From NCBI RefSeq assembly GCF_033097365.1, contig NZ_AP028461.1:11001501-11065500 (forward strand): a stretch of DNA of 64,000 nt. Reading direction: 5' to 3'. A model generated the notes under the pieces. It was not told where the DNA came from and made no database searches. It saw nothing but the letters and a program-made list of their open reading frames with translations. The position numbers and the translations under genes were made by a program. The stretch comes from Actinoplanes sichuanensis (lineage in GTDB: Bacteria; Actinomycetota; Actinomycetes; Mycobacteriales; Micromonosporaceae). The number at the start of each line of letters is the position of its first letter. The first letter of the stretch is position 1. Positions 3,675 to 10,131 of the stretch are shown in pieces.

Positions 3675-3715
3675 TGTGCATAACTCTGTGGATGGACACC
3701 AGAAGTTGTGGACAA
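3675..3715 (+). promoter_or_regulatory. Cluster of three DnaA-box-like 9-mers
   Basis: Three 9-mers lie in one orientation: TGTGCATAA (3675-3683), TGTGGATGG (3687-3695) and TGTGGACAA (3707-3715). The last is the exact complement of the actinobacterial DnaA box TTGTCCACA. The first differs by one base from the complement of TTATCCACA. They fall in the 144-bp gap upstream of the HerA-like gene. Binding by DnaA is an inference from motif match and clustering. Confidence 0.45.
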
Positions 3716-3753: not shown

Positions 3754-5499
3754 ATGATCCCCGTGTCTGACGAAACTTCCCCCGTCGGGCGGGTGCTCGG
3801 AACAGCGGACGCGACACCGCTGCAGTTCTGGACGGCCGTGACCCCGGGCAGCTACCTCCAGCTCGACGACGTCGTGGTGACCAAGCGCGATCTGCCGGAC
3901 CGTGAGCCGGTGACGATCGCCGGCGTGGTCACCCAGGTGCGCGCGCGCCACGAGGGCGCCCAGTTCGACTCGGACGTGTTCGCCATCGCCGACGGCACAC
4001 TGCCCGCGATGGTGCAGGAGGCGGCCGAGATCACCACCACCCGGGTCGACCCGGAGCTCTACGTGCCACCGGCCCCCGGCGCGATCGTGCACCGGGCCTC
4101 GGGTGACGCCCGTGACGCGGCGCTGCACTTCGACCGGATGGAGCGGCGGGTCCCGATGGGCACCGGCCGTGACGGGGTGCCGGTCTTCCTCAACGCCGAC
4201 TTCCTCGACGGCACCCGCGGCGCGCACGTGTCGATCTCCGGCATCTCCGGCGTGGCGACCAAGACGAGTTTCGCCACGTTCCTGCTGTATTCGGTGTTCC
4301 GGTCCGGTCAGCTGGGCGCCGACGGCACCAACGCCCGCGCGCTGATCTTCAACGTCAAAGGCGAGGACCTGCTCTTCCTGGACCACCCCAACACCAAGCT
4401 CGACGACCGGACCCGCGAGGCGTATGCGCTGTTGGGTCTGCCCGCCGCCCCCTTCCCGGACGTGCGGGTCTACGCGCCGCCCCGGGCCGGTGACTCCTCC
4501 GGTGCGCCCGACGTGGCCAGCCGGCTCACCGGGGTGGACGCGTTCTACTGGACGCTCGCCGAGTTCTGCGAGCAGAAGCTGCTGCCCTATGTGTTCGCCG
4601 ACGCCGATGACGAGCGCCAGCAATACACGATGGTGGTGCACTCGGTGACCGCCCATCTGAACCGCTACGCGGTGCCCGCCGAGGGCGGCATCAGCATCGA
4701 CGGTAAGCGGATCAGCTCGTACCAGGATCTGGTCGATCACGTCGTCGAGCAGCTCACCGACGACGACACCAGGTCCACCTGGGCGGGCAGCGCGGTCAAC
4801 ATGGGCACGGTCAACGCGTTCGCCCGCCGGCTGATCGGCAGCAAGCGCGACCTGTCCCGGCTGATCCGCGGCGACCTGGCCCAGCGCCGCCCGCACCGGA
4901 TCAAGACCGCCGACAGCGCCCAGGTGACCGTGGTCGACCTGCACAACCTGCCGGACCGGGCGCAGCGGTTCGTCGTGGGTGTGACGCTGAAGACCGAGTT
5001 CGAGGAGAAGGAGAAGTCGGGCACCGGCCGCCCGCTGCTCTTCGTGGTCCTCGACGAGCTGAACAAGTACGCGCCCCGGGAGGGCTCCTCCCCGATCAAG
5101 GAGGTGCTGCTCGACATCGCCGAGCGGGGCCGCTCGCTCGGGGTGATCCTGATCGGCGCCCAGCAGACGGCCAGCGAGGTGGAGCGCCGGATCGTGACCA
5201 ACTCGGCGATCCGGGTGGTCGGCCGGCTGGATCCGGCCGAGGCGTCCCGCCCGGAGTACGGATTCCTGCCCCCGGCCATGCGCCAGCGTGCCCTGCTGGC
5301 CCGGCCGGGCACGATGTTCGTGAACCAGCCGGACATCCCGGTCCCGCTCTGTGTCGAGTTCCCGTTCCCGGCCTGGGCCACCCGCAAGTCGGAGTCCGGC
5401 CCGCCGCCGGCCGAGACGCTCCGGTCGATCGTCCAGGGCGCCGACCCGTTCGCGGTGATAGGCGGGCGTGCCTCAGCGGACGACGACATTCCGTTCTAG
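3754..5499 (+). CDS. HerA-like ATPase (FtsK/HerA superfamily), first gene of a resection operon
   Basis: The 581-residue protein has a HAS-barrel-like N-terminal domain (about residues 1-110) and a RecA-like motor. The P-loop region reads GISGVATKTS (residues 163-172), lacking the usual Gly before Lys. The Walker B block is LLFVVLDELNKY with D434 and E435, and a sensor-like segment VILIGAQQTASEVE follows. HerA forms hexameric rings that translocate DNA and feed the NurA nuclease. The three genes that follow are sbcD (Mre11), sbcC (Rad50) and a NurA-like gene, the order known from archaeal HerA-Mre11-Rad50-NurA operons. The ATG at 3754 is used; a GTG at 3763 is possible. Function in end resection is inferred from context. 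Confidence 0.85.
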   Translation: MIPVSDETSPVGRVLGTADATPLQFWTAVTPGSYLQLDDVVVTKRDLPDREPVTIAGVVTQVRARHEGAQFDSDVFAIADGTLPAMVQEAAEITTTRVDPELYVPPAPGAIVHRASGDARDAALHFDRMERRVPMGTGRDGVPVFLNADFLDGTRGAHVSISGISGVATKTSFATFLLYSVFRSGQLGADGTNARALIFNVKGEDLLFLDHPNTKLDDRTREAYALLGLPAAPFPDVRVYAPPRAGDSSGAPDVASRLTGVDAFYWTLAEFCEQKLLPYVFADADDERQQYTMVVHSVTAHLNRYAVPAEGGISIDGKRISSYQDLVDHVVEQLTDDDTRSTWAGSAVNMGTVNAFARRLIGSKRDLSRLIRGDLAQRRPHRIKTADSAQVTVVDLHNLPDRAQRFVVGVTLKTEFEEKEKSGTGRPLLFVVLDELNKYAPREGSSPIKEVLLDIAERGRSLGVILIGAQQTASEVERRIVTNSAIRVVGRLDPAEASRPEYGFLPPAMRQRALLARPGTMFVNQPDIPVPLCVEFPFPAWATRKSESGPPPAETLRSIVQGADPFAVIGGRASADDDIPF

Positions 5500-5519
5500 C
5501 CGGAGACTAAGGTTCAGCG

Positions 5520-6674
5520 ATGCGCATCCTGCACACCTCCGACTGGCACGTCGGCAAGGTTCTCAAGGGCAAGAACCGCAACGAGGAGCACATCAAGGTT
5601 CTCGCCCAGGTCGTCGAGATCGCCCGGGCCGAGCGTCCCGATCTGGTGATCGTGGCCGGTGATCTCTACGACACCGCCGCGCCGACGGCCGAGGCGACCC
5701 GGCTGGTCACCCGGGCCCTGTCCGCGTTGCGCAAGACCGGCGCCCGGGTGGTGGCGATCGGCGGCAACCACGACAACGGGGCCGCGCTCGACGCGTTGCG
5801 CCCGTGGGCCGACGCCGCCGGGATCGAGCTGCGTGGGTCGTACCCCAAGGGTGATCTGAATGATCTTCTGATCGAGGGGACGACCGAGAGCGGTGAGCGG
5901 TGGCGGCTCGTCGCGCTGCCCTTCCTCTCCCAGCGGTATGCGATCCGCGCCGCCGAGATGTATGAACTGACCGCCGCCGAGGCCAATCAGACGTACGCCG
6001 ACCTGGTGGCCCGCCTGATCGCCAAGCTCAGTGAGCCGTTCGCGGAGCCGGGCGTGGTCAACCTGCTCACCGCCCACCTGACCATCGTCGGCGCGAGCGC
6101 CGGTGGCGGTGAGCGCGAGGCGCACACGATCATGGGCTATGCCGTGCCGGCCACGGTGTTCCCGGCGAACGCGCACTACGTCGCCCTGGGCCACCTGCAC
6201 CGGAACCAGACGGTGATCTCCCCGTGCCCGACCCGGTACTGCGGCAGCCCACTCGCGATCGACTTCGGCGAGGAGGAAAATGTCTGCTCGGTCGCGATCG
6301 TCGACGTCTCCACCGACAAGGCGGCTCATGTCCGTGATGTGCCGGTGACCTCGGCGCTCACCCTGCGGACCGTGCGCGGCACGCTGGAGCAGCTCGCCAC
6401 GGTGAACCTTCCGGACGCCTGGCTGCGTGTCCTGGTGCGGGAAGCGCCCCGGCCCGGCCTCCGCGAGGACGTGCAGGAGCTCCTGCCGAACGCCCTGGAG
6501 GTGCGCATCGACCCGGACATGCTGCCGAGCCGTGACGGTGCCCGCAGCGCCGAGCGGGCCGGCCGGTCCCCGCGCGAGCTCTTCGGCGACTACCTGGACA
6601 GTCGCGGCAACGCCGAGGAGGGCGTCCGCGAGCTCTTCGACGCGTTGTACGACGAGGTGAGCAGCAACAAATGA
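5520..6674 (+). CDS. sbcD: Exonuclease subunit SbcD (Mre11-type phosphoesterase)
   Basis: SbcD is the Mn-dependent nuclease of the SbcCD complex, which opens hairpins and processes double-strand breaks. The 384-residue sequence shows all calcineurin-like motifs: SDWHVGK (residues 7-13), AGDLYD, GGNHDN, LLTAHL and GHLHRNQ, followed by a C-terminal capping region. Length is normal for the family. It starts 20 bp after the HerA-like gene and overlaps sbcC by 4 bp (ATGA), so it is made in step with its partner. Confidence 0.95.
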   Translation: MRILHTSDWHVGKVLKGKNRNEEHIKVLAQVVEIARAERPDLVIVAGDLYDTAAPTAEATRLVTRALSALRKTGARVVAIGGNHDNGAALDALRPWADAAGIELRGSYPKGDLNDLLIEGTTESGERWRLVALPFLSQRYAIRAAEMYELTAAEANQTYADLVARLIAKLSEPFAEPGVVNLLTAHLTIVGASAGGGEREAHTIMGYAVPATVFPANAHYVALGHLHRNQTVISPCPTRYCGSPLAIDFGEEENVCSVAIVDVSTDKAAHVRDVPVTSALTLRTVRGTLEQLATVNLPDAWLRVLVREAPRPGLREDVQELLPNALEVRIDPDMLPSRDGARSAERAGRSPRELFGDYLDSRGNAEEGVRELFDALYDEVSSNK

Positions 6675-9160
6675 GGCCACTGAGGCTCGACATGGCCGGG
6701 TTCACGGTCTTCCGCGACCAGACGACCGTGGATTTCACCGACGCCGACTACTTCGCCCTGGTCGGCCCGACCGGCTCGGGCAAGTCCACCGTGCTGGACG
6801 CGATCTGTTTCGCCCTCTACGGCACCGTTCCCCGGTGGGGTGGCGCCCGGGGGATCGGCAACGCTCTCGCGCCGTCGGCCGCCGAGGCCCGGGTCCGCCT
6901 GGTCTTCGAGTCGGCCGGGGACCGGTTCGTGGCGACCCGGGTGGTCCGCCGGGACGGCCGGGGCAACGTGAAGACGGCGGGCGCCGGGCTGCAGCTGATG
7001 CCGCCCGGCTTCGACGTCACCAAGCTCGACACCGGCATGGACCTGGAGGATCTGGGCGAGGTGCTGGCCGGCACCCCGGCCGAGATGGACGCCGCCGTGC
7101 TGGATGCGGTGGGCCTGCCCTACGAGCAGTTCACCAGCTGTGTGGTGCTGCCGCAGGGCCAGTTCGCCGACTTCCTGCACGCGAAACCGGCGACCCGCCA
7201 GCAGATCCTGGTCAACCTGCTGGGCCTGCACGTCTACGAGGAGGTGCAGGTCAAGGCGGCCGAGCGGGGAAAGAGCGCGGAGGCCAAGCTGACCGTCGTC
7301 GAGCAGCAGCTCGGCACCCTGGAGGACGCCACCGACGAGGCCGTCGAGCAGGCCGCCGCCGAGCTGGAGCGGATGCGGGAGCTGACCGTCGCGGTGGAGG
7401 CCGCCGTGCCGGGACTGCGCGCCGCCCGGGAGGCCGAGGTGGCCGCGTCCGAGGCACGGGACGCGCTGGACGCCGAGCTGGCGGCGCTCGGCTCGGTGCG
7501 TACCCCGGCCGGTCTGGAGGAGGCGGCCGGCGCGGTCGCCGCGGCGCGGGAGTCGGCCGACCGGGCGGCCGCCGAGGTGCAGGCGGCCGAGGAGGCCGAG
7601 GAGAAGGTCCGCGGTGAGCTGACCGCGGCGGGTGACCCCGGGCAGTTGCGGGTGGCACTGGACCGGCACACCGAGCTGAGCCGCCTGATCGAGCAGGAGG
7701 AGTGGTTCGCCGGCAAGGTGTCGGTGGCCGACGTCGAGTACCGGGACACCCAGGCCGCCGCCGAGCTGGCCCACGCCCAGCACCTCGGCGCCCAGCAGCT
7801 GCTGGAGCAGGCCCGACAGGACTACCGGGACGCCCAGCAGCGGGACCGGGCGGCGGCGCTGCGCGGTCACCTGAACTCCGGGGACGCCTGCCCGGTCTGC
7901 GAGCAGACGGTGAGCGTGGTGCCGGAGGTGCCGCGGGAGTCCGCGGTCCGGCTCGCCGAGCAGGCCGGCAACGTGGCCCGCGAGGAGGCCGAGTCGGCAC
8001 AGGCCCGCTGGCGCGAGCGGGACGCGGTCGCCCGCAACGCGGCGTTCGACCTGGAGCGCAAGCGCGGGCAGTACGAGCATCACCTGACCCGGCTGGCCGA
8101 GGTCCGCAAGGCCGTCGAAGCGCTGCCCGGGGTGGACTCGCTCCAGCAGCGGCTGACCGAGATGAGCGTGCTCCAGCGCCGGCTGGAGGACTCCGGCACC
8201 GCGGTGCGCGGGGCGCGGGAGGCGCTGCGCACCGCGCAATCGGTGGTCCGTTCGGCCGAGGAACGGCAGCGGACGGCCTGGCGCACGTTCGACTCGGCCC
8301 GAGACGGGTTGGCCCGGTTCGGTCCGCCGCCGGCCGACCGGGACGACCTGGCCGGCGCCTGGCGGGCTCTGGTCGACTGGGCGGCCGGGGAGCACGGCCG
8401 GCGCCGGGCCGCGCGCGACGAGGCGGAGAGCCGGGTGGCCGCCGCGCACCAGCAGACGGTGCGGGCACGGGCCGACATCGTCGACCTGTTCACCGCGGCC
8501 GGCGTGCCGGGTCCGGCGTCCCCGGACGAGGCCGGGCTGATCCGGGCCGCCGCGGTGACCGCCGAGCGGGCCGGTGCGGCCTGGCAGCGGCTGACCGAGC
8601 GCCGGGAGCAGGCCCGGGCCGCCCTGGCGCAGCGGGACGCGTTGCTGCAGGCGAGTCGGGTGGCGAAAGCGCTGGCCGGGCACCTACGGGCGAACAACTT
8701 CGAGCGCTGGCTGTTGGAGGAGGCGCTCGACCTGCTGGTCGACGGGGCGTCCCGGATTCTGCGGGAGCTGACCGGCGGGCAGTACGAGTTGTTCCATGAG
8801 AAGGGCGAGTTCGCCGTCGTGGACCATCACGACGCGGGGCTGCGGCGCGGCGTGCGGACGCTGTCCGGCGGTGAGACGTTCCAGGCGTCGCTGGCTCTGG
8901 CGCTGGCCCTCTCCGAACAGCTGGCCGGGATGAGCACCACCGCGGCCAGCCTGGAGTCGATCGTGCTGGACGAGGGCTTCGGCACCCTGGACGCGGCCAC
9001 CCTGGACGTGGTCGCGGCGACTCTGGAGAATCTGGCGGCCCGCGGCGACCGGATGGTCGGCCTGGTCACCCATGTGCACGCGCTCGCCGAGCGGGTGCCG
9101 GTCCGGTTCGAGGTGCACAAGGACGCGCGTACCGCCCACGTGGAGAGGGTCGGCCTGTGA
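6671..9160 (+). CDS. sbcC: Exonuclease subunit SbcC (Rad50-type SMC ATPase)
   Basis: The 829-residue protein has the SMC/Rad50 layout: Walker A GPTGSGKST at residues 32-40, Q-loop region GQFADFL, long coiled coils rich in Ala/Glu/Arg, a zinc hook CPVC at residues 407-410, a second coil, ABC signature LSGGE at 731-735, and Walker B IVLDEGFGTLD around residue 767. It is shorter than E. coli SbcC (about 1,050 residues), which implies shorter coiled-coil arms. It pairs with SbcD for ATP-controlled end processing. Both ends overlap neighbours by 4 bp, giving a tightly coupled operon. Confidence 0.95.
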   Translation: MRPLRLDMAGFTVFRDQTTVDFTDADYFALVGPTGSGKSTVLDAICFALYGTVPRWGGARGIGNALAPSAAEARVRLVFESAGDRFVATRVVRRDGRGNVKTAGAGLQLMPPGFDVTKLDTGMDLEDLGEVLAGTPAEMDAAVLDAVGLPYEQFTSCVVLPQGQFADFLHAKPATRQQILVNLLGLHVYEEVQVKAAERGKSAEAKLTVVEQQLGTLEDATDEAVEQAAAELERMRELTVAVEAAVPGLRAAREAEVAASEARDALDAELAALGSVRTPAGLEEAAGAVAAARESADRAAAEVQAAEEAEEKVRGELTAAGDPGQLRVALDRHTELSRLIEQEEWFAGKVSVADVEYRDTQAAAELAHAQHLGAQQLLEQARQDYRDAQQRDRAAALRGHLNSGDACPVCEQTVSVVPEVPRESAVRLAEQAGNVAREEAESAQARWRERDAVARNAAFDLERKRGQYEHHLTRLAEVRKAVEALPGVDSLQQRLTEMSVLQRRLEDSGTAVRGAREALRTAQSVVRSAEERQRTAWRTFDSARDGLARFGPPPADRDDLAGAWRALVDWAAGEHGRRRAARDEAESRVAAAHQQTVRARADIVDLFTAAGVPGPASPDEAGLIRAAAVTAERAGAAWQRLTERREQARAALAQRDALLQASRVAKALAGHLRANNFERWLLEEALDLLVDGASRILRELTGGQYELFHEKGEFAVVDHHDAGLRRGVRTLSGGETFQASLALALALSEQLAGMSTTAASLESIVLDEGFGTLDAATLDVVAATLENLAARGDRMVGLVTHVHALAERVPVRFEVHKDARTAHVERVGL

Positions 9161-10131
9161 CCAGGATGTTCGTCGACGCGTGGGACCCGTCCTACGGTGC
9201 CTCCTTCGAGGGCGGCGACGGCGGTGGGGACGGGCCCGGCTCGTCCAGCAGCGCCCAGGTCGACGTCGACGTGGAGGTGCCGGCCGCCGAGTGGGCGCCG
9301 ATCGACGTGTCCCGTACGGCCACCGTGCCGGACGTGGTGTTCCTGGTCGACGGCGTGCGGCGCAACGACGCCGGGCTGTGGACGGCCGAGGAGGACGGCA
9401 CCTCGTACGCGGGGCTGGCCGCCTCGTACGCCGCCGGGGTGGTCCGTTGCGACCTGGCTCGGGGCGCCGCCGAACTGGTCGGCGCGCGGGTGGCCCGGGG
9501 CCTGTTCACGGCGAGCCCGTCGGCCACCGATGTGCAGGCGGGTTCGGTGCGCTACGAGGTGCACCGGGTCGGTGGCAACGGCGAGGCGAGCAAGCTGCCG
9601 GCGGCCGTGCAGGGCCCGCTGACGGCCCTGGAGATCGAGATCTCGGCGGCGGCCCGGGACGGTGGCTCGGACGGGGCCGATCTGCTCGTGGTGGACGGCC
9701 CGTTGCGTAACCGGCGTCAGCTGCCGCGCACGATCGGCTATGTGAAGACCCAGCAGAAGCACTATCTGCCGGCCGCACAGGAGGCGATCGTGCCCCGGCT
9801 GCGGCCGAGCCAGCGAACACCGGTCTTCCATCTGGGGTCGGTGTGGGGCGGCTGGTCCTGGTATCTGCGGTTGCCCGGCGCGTCGGGCGCCCCGTGGTCC
9901 GGCATCGTGCGGGTGGAGTGCTCGCCGGAGCTGACCGCGGAGCAGGCGATCGAGCTGGCCGACGTGTCGGTGGCGACGTTGCCGCGGTTCGCCTCGTCGG
10001 CGTACAAGGATCCGCGCGCTCCGCAGAACCTGGTGCCGATCGCGGGCCTGGAGCGGCGCCTGCGGGGGATGTTGGGCGACGCCCGGGTCCTGCACCGAGC
10101 GTTGTCTCTGGCGACCAGTCACACCCGCTGA
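9157..10131 (+). CDS. NurA-like nuclease domain protein, fourth gene of the HerA-SbcDC operon
   Basis: This 324-residue protein starts at a GTG that overlaps the sbcC stop. NurA-type signposts are visible: a strand ending in VFLVDGVRR (Asp65), a second LLVVDGPL strand (Asp180) followed closely by IGYVKTQ, an Arg/Glu-bearing strand GIVRVECS, and a C-terminal motif DPRAPQNLVPI from Asp285. NurA is a 5'-3' nuclease that works with HerA in archaea. Residues 20-40 are a Gly/Ser/Asp-rich linker. Similarity is by motif order and by its place after herA-mre11-rad50; I could not align it. A non-catalytic NurA-fold adaptor is the main alternative. Confidence 0.7.
   Translation: MTRMFVDAWDPSYGASFEGGDGGGDGPGSSSSAQVDVDVEVPAAEWAPIDVSRTATVPDVVFLVDGVRRNDAGLWTAEEDGTSYAGLAASYAAGVVRCDLARGAAELVGARVARGLFTASPSATDVQAGSVRYEVHRVGGNGEASKLPAAVQGPLTALEIEISAAARDGGSDGADLLVVDGPLRNRRQLPRTIGYVKTQQKHYLPAAQEAIVPRLRPSQRTPVFHLGSVWGGWSWYLRLPGASGAPWSGIVRVECSPELTAEQAIELADVSVATLPRFASSAYKDPRAPQNLVPIAGLERRLRGMLGDARVLHRALSLATSHTR

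Follow-up and report, generated by a model that had tools for sequence, protein, structure and literature searches.

A candidate DNA end-processing quartet of bacterial type, herA-sbcD-sbcC-nurA, in Actinoplanes sichuanensis and its relatives

Introduction

What does a soil actinobacterium do with adjoining genes for HerA, SbcD, SbcC and NurA, an end-trimming enzyme set attributed to archaea, and where did their order come from? The question is raised by a 64,000-nt stretch of the Actinoplanes sichuanensis genome, hereafter the window (contig NZ_AP028461.1, positions 11,001,501 to 11,065,500; 11.00–11.07 Mb of a genome assembled as a single contig of 12.14 Mb). The first-pass annotation had seen there an archaeal-order quartet encoding a second resection machine. 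Our analysis indicates that the quartet probably joins a HerA-NurA pair of bacterial type to a co-inherited SbcCD in the processing of DNA ends for repair. This soil actinobacterium and numerous related ones carry the enzyme set in a bacterial form that is poorly annotated.

The role of HerA-NurA is disputed: resection is indicated in Sulfolobus and by the biochemistry of Deinococcus radiodurans, D. radiodurans mutants have shown opposite phenotypes, and an antiviral role has been proposed in Thermococcus. In this mesophilic, culturable group of actinobacteria the four genes are coupled and an AdnAB-like pair can be removed separately, which makes the role testable. A review makes mention of actinobacterial homologues of HerA and NurA (PMC8708640). 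Our literature search found nothing that joins HerA, NurA, SbcCD and actinobacteria, and neither the quartet in actinobacteria nor its two gene orders or separate SbcCD lineage came up as the subject of a paper, though older papers may mention such clusters.

Identity of the four proteins

Translation of the open reading frames (ORFs) confirmed the four same-strand genes of the first-pass annotation, the last three joined by overlaps of 4 bp each (Table 1). A gap of 20 bp separates the herA stop from the sbcD start. A promoter scan gave no hit and a terminator scan one, which was not above shuffled sequence. We infer transcription as an operon, a physical complex of the products, a direction of cutting and a role in repair.

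Table 1. Features of the quartet and its upstream region, numbered from the first letter of the window
Feature	Position	Strand	Description	Evidence
herA	3754..5499	+	581 aa; predicted hexameric ATPase/translocase, bacterial (Deinococcus-type) HerA	phmmer and residue mapping
sbcD	5520..6674	+	384 aa; Mre11-type nuclease	TIGR00619; solved SbcD chains
sbcC	6671..9160	+	829 aa; Rad50-type ATPase	TIGR00618 below cut-off; translation
nurA	9157..10131	+	324 aa, GTG start; predicted RNase H-like nuclease	
DnaA-box-like 9-mer TTATGCACA	3675-3683	-	upstream of herA; 32 bp from the next	
DnaA-box-like 9-mer TTGTCCACA	3707-3715	-	upstream of herA; 32 bp from the previous	

The first protein was borne out as a HerA. 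It matched the D. radiodurans HerA (drHerA, 7f6d_B) with an E-value of 2.5e-150 (phmmer), and a profile match reached E 2.7e-182 over positions 2–539 of 543. The alignment with drHerA takes in the N-terminal region that forms the HAS barrel there. Residues K170, T171, D205, D434, E435 and R442 correspond to drHerA K175, T176, D220, D487, E488 and R495 and were kept in all 11 aligned members. Other solved HerA chains matched weakly (best 8xau, E 0.0028), and 4D2I, the archaeal HerA, was not recovered by sequence even with E allowed up to 10. The Walker A motif, GISGVATKTS, is not of the textbook form; a degenerate HerA was considered and rejected, because drHerA has the same letters and is an ATPase.

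A NurA label for the fourth protein from impression alone was set aside, and profile, fold and residues were each tested. The NurA profile (A1) matched the D. radiodurans NurA (drNurA) chain 7f6d_H with E 5.8e-36 and 1zup with E 0.0047, and structure prediction, as proposed by the first-pass annotation, gave a NurA-type fold with an RNase H-like core. D65, K197 and R287, kept in 10/10 relatives, correspond to drNurA D53, K201 and R309; the mapping, like that of HerA, went through printed alignments, and the drNurA chain numbering was shifted by 20, which brings 12 residues that the paper names into agreement. An invariant tryptophan, W9, would, by position, lie about at drNurA W8, beside the DNA-splitting pin. 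Together these results uphold the NurA-like assignment; nuclease activity and its activation by HerA are predicted. The solved NurA-HerA of D. radiodurans (7f6d, 7wrw, 7wrx) thus shares the protein families and catalytic residues of the quartet, the mapped residues serving catalysis, ATP or metal binding, or translocation (PMC9960219).

The first-pass annotation had proposed a profile search against the HerA and NurA families. Pfam and NCBIfam cut-offs were missed and the Deinococcus proteins matched strongly, which exposes an annotation gap. HerA scored 11.9 bits with NCBIfam helicase_HerA, far under the cut-off of 970. The window NurA alone matched no Pfam NurA model, PF09376 had no match in the A. 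sichuanensis genome and weakly matched three of the 10 NurA relatives (best E 0.0034), and a sequence search reaching to E 10 did not recover the archaeal NurA entries 2YGK and 3TAI. The four plasmid records that list both genes call nurA a "hypothetical protein" and label herA either likewise or as an "ATP-binding protein".

The SbcD and SbcC assignments also stood. SbcD matched TIGR00619 (E 2.4e-52, 178 bits, over the cut-off of 77.65) and, among solved structures, the SbcD chains 4lty and 6s6v (both near E 1e-33); its best matches were chains named SbcD, and archaeal Mre11 chains reached only E 1e-8 or weaker. SbcC matched TIGR00618 (E 2.1e-75), though its 254 bits are under the cut-off of 478.5; the model has 1043 positions, the protein 829 aa, and the translation carries GPTGSGKS, CPVC and LDEGFGTLD.

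Distribution and gene order

The best 80 of 478 NurA relatives, all from what we take, by name, to be Micromonosporaceae, served as named loci. The closest of these NurA proteins, from Actinoplanes species, are 98% identical to that of the window. All four genes stood on one strand in the window's order (herA-sbcD-sbcC-nurA, order A) in 76 named loci, including one, L068, in which SbcC was matched only partly; the other four were cut by contig ends. In a class sample, NurA was found in 15/197 genomes, one of them (G188) with a weak match containing internal stops, and order A recurred in 13/13 other class-level loci fetched (L111 is cut inside HerA). In a phylum sample, HerA was found in 98/396 genomes at E 1e-20. 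Setting aside 21 weak matches, all of family code f50, and a weak match in G448 left 76 strong ones.

In total, 78 stretches were examined. Of these, 13 are class-level and five lie on plasmids; the phylum sample supplied the remaining 60, taken from 58 of the 74 other strong-HerA genomes plus G448 and G206. The four genes lay on one strand in 66, of which 33 had order A, 33 had nurA-herA-sbcD-sbcC (order B) and none a third order. Three of the rest had nurA-herA only and nine were partial, several at contig ends. Order B was found in other actinobacterial families, on two cyanobacterial plasmids and on one Chloroflexota plasmid. Even in two genomes with a distant or separate HerA, relatives of sbcD, sbcC and nurA lay in one stretch. 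A chance neighbourhood was rejected by this conservation in the named, class-level and phylum-sample loci, and the survey across actinobacteria suggested by the first-pass annotation therefore found the order conserved. The coupling noted by that annotation is real; it is also widespread and already reported for Oceanithermus (PMC5448004).

Some loci depart from the common form. L206 and L198, one from an f50 genome and one from another, have a divergent HerA and an adjacent NurA-like gene, and SbcCD was not found in either stretch. Related ORFs lie between herA and sbcD in L153 (6228-8171, 648 aa) and L165 (5532-7313, 594 aa); the former had no Pfam match. In L197 (G301:C5), HerA is in several pieces in different frames, which may reflect assembly error or decay, and sbcD, sbcC and nurA are each in one frame.

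Origin of the gene order

The gene set and order are those of the archaeal herA-mre11-rad50-nurA operon of Saccharolobus (PMC10470591, PMC4351679), as the first-pass annotation had recognized; the proteins are of Deinococcus type and the order belongs to one actinobacterial clade. Trees were built quickly, without bootstrap, and supports are from the Shimodaira–Hasegawa-like approximate likelihood ratio test (SH-aLRT). They contained no archaeal loci, and two of the 33 order-A loci were left out, L111 (cut) and L197 (interrupted HerA). Order-A loci formed one clade in the HerA tree (support 83, rising to 89 once the partial rows and the two longest ones were dropped), in the SbcD tree (98.5) and in the concatenated HerA-NurA-SbcD tree (100). 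Two order changes are needed on the tree of NurA; a single order-A clade was not rejected and scored above the free search (approximately unbiased test, p-AU 0.78). With L115 and L116 as a provisional root, the concatenated tree placed the nurA-first loci outside the order-A clade, as did the HerA tree.

In bacteria, nurA precedes hepA in Thermus, and sbcD and sbcC follow hepA in Oceanithermus (PMC5448004). Oceanithermus profundus thus has bacterial-type genes clustered with SbcCD, as here, in an arrangement that equals order B, whereas in Actinoplanes nurA is last and overlaps sbcC. Given this arrangement, the single order-A clade and the nurA-first loci outside it, the simplest reading of the sequences would be that nurA moved once to the 3' end, a later relocation within order-B relatives. 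The likeness to the archaeal operon would then be convergent, and the Actinoplanes order appears to be independently derived. Acquisition of a ready-made cluster from archaea would explain the identity with the Saccharolobus order (PMC10470591). It is hardly credible given the strong matches to Deinococcus proteins, the archaeal HerA and NurA entries not recovered by sequence, the weaker matches of SbcD to archaeal Mre11 and the position of nurA-first relatives outside the order-A clade.

The SbcCD lineage and a second end-processing system

At E 1e-12, TIGR00619 found no SbcD in the A. sichuanensis genome besides that of the quartet; by the same measure, 51 of 56 genomes checked had one or more. 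Seven stand-alone SbcD proteins formed a separate clade in the SbcD tree (support 100), which includes second copies from G131, G190 and G536, genomes that also carry a quartet. Their loci (L208-L213, L215) likewise have adjacent sbcD and sbcC genes, and HerA and NurA relatives were not found in those stretches; the SbcD of L209 had as its best PDB match another SbcD than that of the quartet protein. The main quartet group, of 46 rows, had a support of only 80. Divergent plasmid SbcD rows (L115, L116) lay outside it together with L214, and L216 and L217, labelled solo, have a quartet-type SbcD placed away from herA. The idea that the quartet SbcCD is an extra beside the usual stand-alone SbcCD thus fails for this genome, and the quartet SbcD does stand apart from the stand-alone clade. 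As a separate observation, L214 (G331:C15) is a divergent HerA-NurA-SbcD-SbcC set whose genome carries another such set as well.

Elsewhere in the A. sichuanensis genome, two large neighbouring ORFs overlap; both match UvrD-type helicases, the first also a PDDEXK_1 nuclease. In a solved heterodimer of UvrD/Rep type, which we take to be mycobacterial AdnAB, they matched chain A (E 1.1e-169) and chain B (E 3.9e-235). The quartet is therefore additional to an AdnAB-like system. Of the second resection machine claimed by the first-pass annotation, a second end-processing system beside AdnAB-like genes stands, and resection itself is a predicted activity. A survey of RecB-type enzymes via PDDEXK_1 was rejected as too general (362/396 genomes, many of the matches being to short open frames); the analysis therefore relied on the AdnAB-like pair of the A. 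sichuanensis genome alone.

Proposed function and alternatives

That the quartet processes DNA ends for repair is the reading we favour as probable. It is supported by the match of HerA and NurA to the solved D. radiodurans complex with the catalytic residues kept. That complex is reported to translocate and digest the 5' strand (PMC9960219). An earlier D. radiodurans study (told in PMC5448004) reported a 10-fold drop in intermolecular recombination when nurA, herA or the two together were lost. The shared strand of all four genes in 66/78 loci, the recovery of order A as one clade, the distance between quartet and stand-alone SbcD, the stable flanks of the named loci and the Ku genes described below also speak for this reading. 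Most likely, SbcCD would recognize and then nick or open a blocked or broken DNA end. A HerA ring would then be loaded and pump duplex DNA into a NurA dimer, which would cut one or both strands and leave resected or cleared ends for recombination, beside the AdnAB-like helicase-nuclease and not in its place. The product may be 3' tails, cleared ends or destroyed DNA.

Links to Ku were sought in the stretches and genomes. A direct search found Ku within the stretch, only a few kb from herA, in seven of the 78 loci (L151, L153, L155, L165, L181, L182, L189); the first five of these have an ATP-dependent DNA ligase gene there as well. Seven Ku-linked loci compare with 0.52 expected over 71 genomes, and counting three events gave P 0.016. 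Ku was present in 68/71 genomes with HerA (71 of 88; 60 of 76 from the phylum sample and 11 of 12 found only in the class sample) vs 47/80 without it, the latter hand-picked and mostly >2 Mb. A broader account would add to end processing an actinobacterial Mre11-Rad50 lineage that serves HerA-NurA alone in a single four-protein machine, unlike stand-alone SbcCD and AdnAB, with a single nurA move, a convergent order and, in some lineages, a coupling to Ku-ligase end joining that switches between repair pathways. We offer it tentatively, as a whole that is somewhat doubtful.

Several observations weigh against the repair reading or its extension. The seven Ku-linked loci come from three family codes, of which two are sister groups by HerA phylogeny; when stratified by family, the Ku-HerA association was not significant (z 1.35). 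The herA-sbcD gap is 0.7–3.9 kb in nine of the 66 complete loci, so coupling is not always tight. Of the drHerA acids that bind NurA, D78 is kept and two of three are lost in the quartet HerA (E80 to F, D81 to A or L); according to PMC9960219 these acids align poorly in other bacteria, and we regard them as a trait of Deinococcus that does not define the family. In Thermococcus, a 2026 study casts doubt on resection by HerA-NurA (PMC12977600). D. radiodurans cells without nurA-herA tolerated mitomycin C and far UV better than cells with the genes, and resection in vitro was weak (PMC9960219). These D. radiodurans results are what would favour a complex that restrains or regulates recombination, by competing for ends or degrading both strands, instead of producing 3' tails. 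We consider such a role quite improbable, since deletion reduced recombination in the earlier study (PMC5448004) and the coupling to SbcCD in Actinoplanes may alter the outcome.

Alternatively, as in other systems that pair HerA with a nuclease, the main task of the quartet could be defence against phages or plasmids through destruction of foreign linear DNA. Two findings speak against a pure repair role. L112 (NZ_CP134205.1 411724-431388), a complete order-A quartet on a linear Streptomyces plasmid, adjoins Wadjet-like and ImmA/IrrE genes, and HerA relatives occur on plasmids of four other bacteria. PADLOC gave no strong defence match for HerA (best mad8, 30.6 bits; HerA, 23.6 bits) and none for NurA; among the flanking ORFs, there was a single member in each of the 25 PADLOC families listed (of 33). 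TdpAB and the HerA-Sir2/DUF4297 complexes have at most a weak sequence relation to the quartet proteins and, to our knowledge, lack SbcCD. With the other solved HerA chains so remote, the chromosomal neighbourhood conserved across the 80 named loci and the commonest families among 106 flanking ORFs not being defence families, a mainly defensive role is unlikely.

Neighbouring genes and upstream sites

Among the named loci, an upstream RibD_C gene was present in 70/80 and a downstream sigma-factor gene in 76/80; these neighbours were common to only two of 13 class-level loci. A Pfam scan of the 10 ORFs around the window operon found GNAT/ACT, RibD_C, sigma-factor and lipoprotein-repeat genes, and no repair gene among them. 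For neighbouring ORFs elsewhere, the start was set roughly, at the first M, V or L, and a filter on third-position GC content (GC3) was applied; 106 of 169 were scanned. Their commonest Pfam families were metabolic or general; ATP-dependent ligase (three) and Ku (two) were included.

Two DnaA-box-like 9-mers lie upstream of herA (Table 1), found with what we assume to be the DnaA box consensus. Across 76 upstream stretches, 37 had two such sites, seven had one and 32 had none, and one or more occurred in 22/4000 random stretches. Upstream stretches from Micromonospora were without the stricter DnaA box. The pair upstream of herA is a possible regulatory element.
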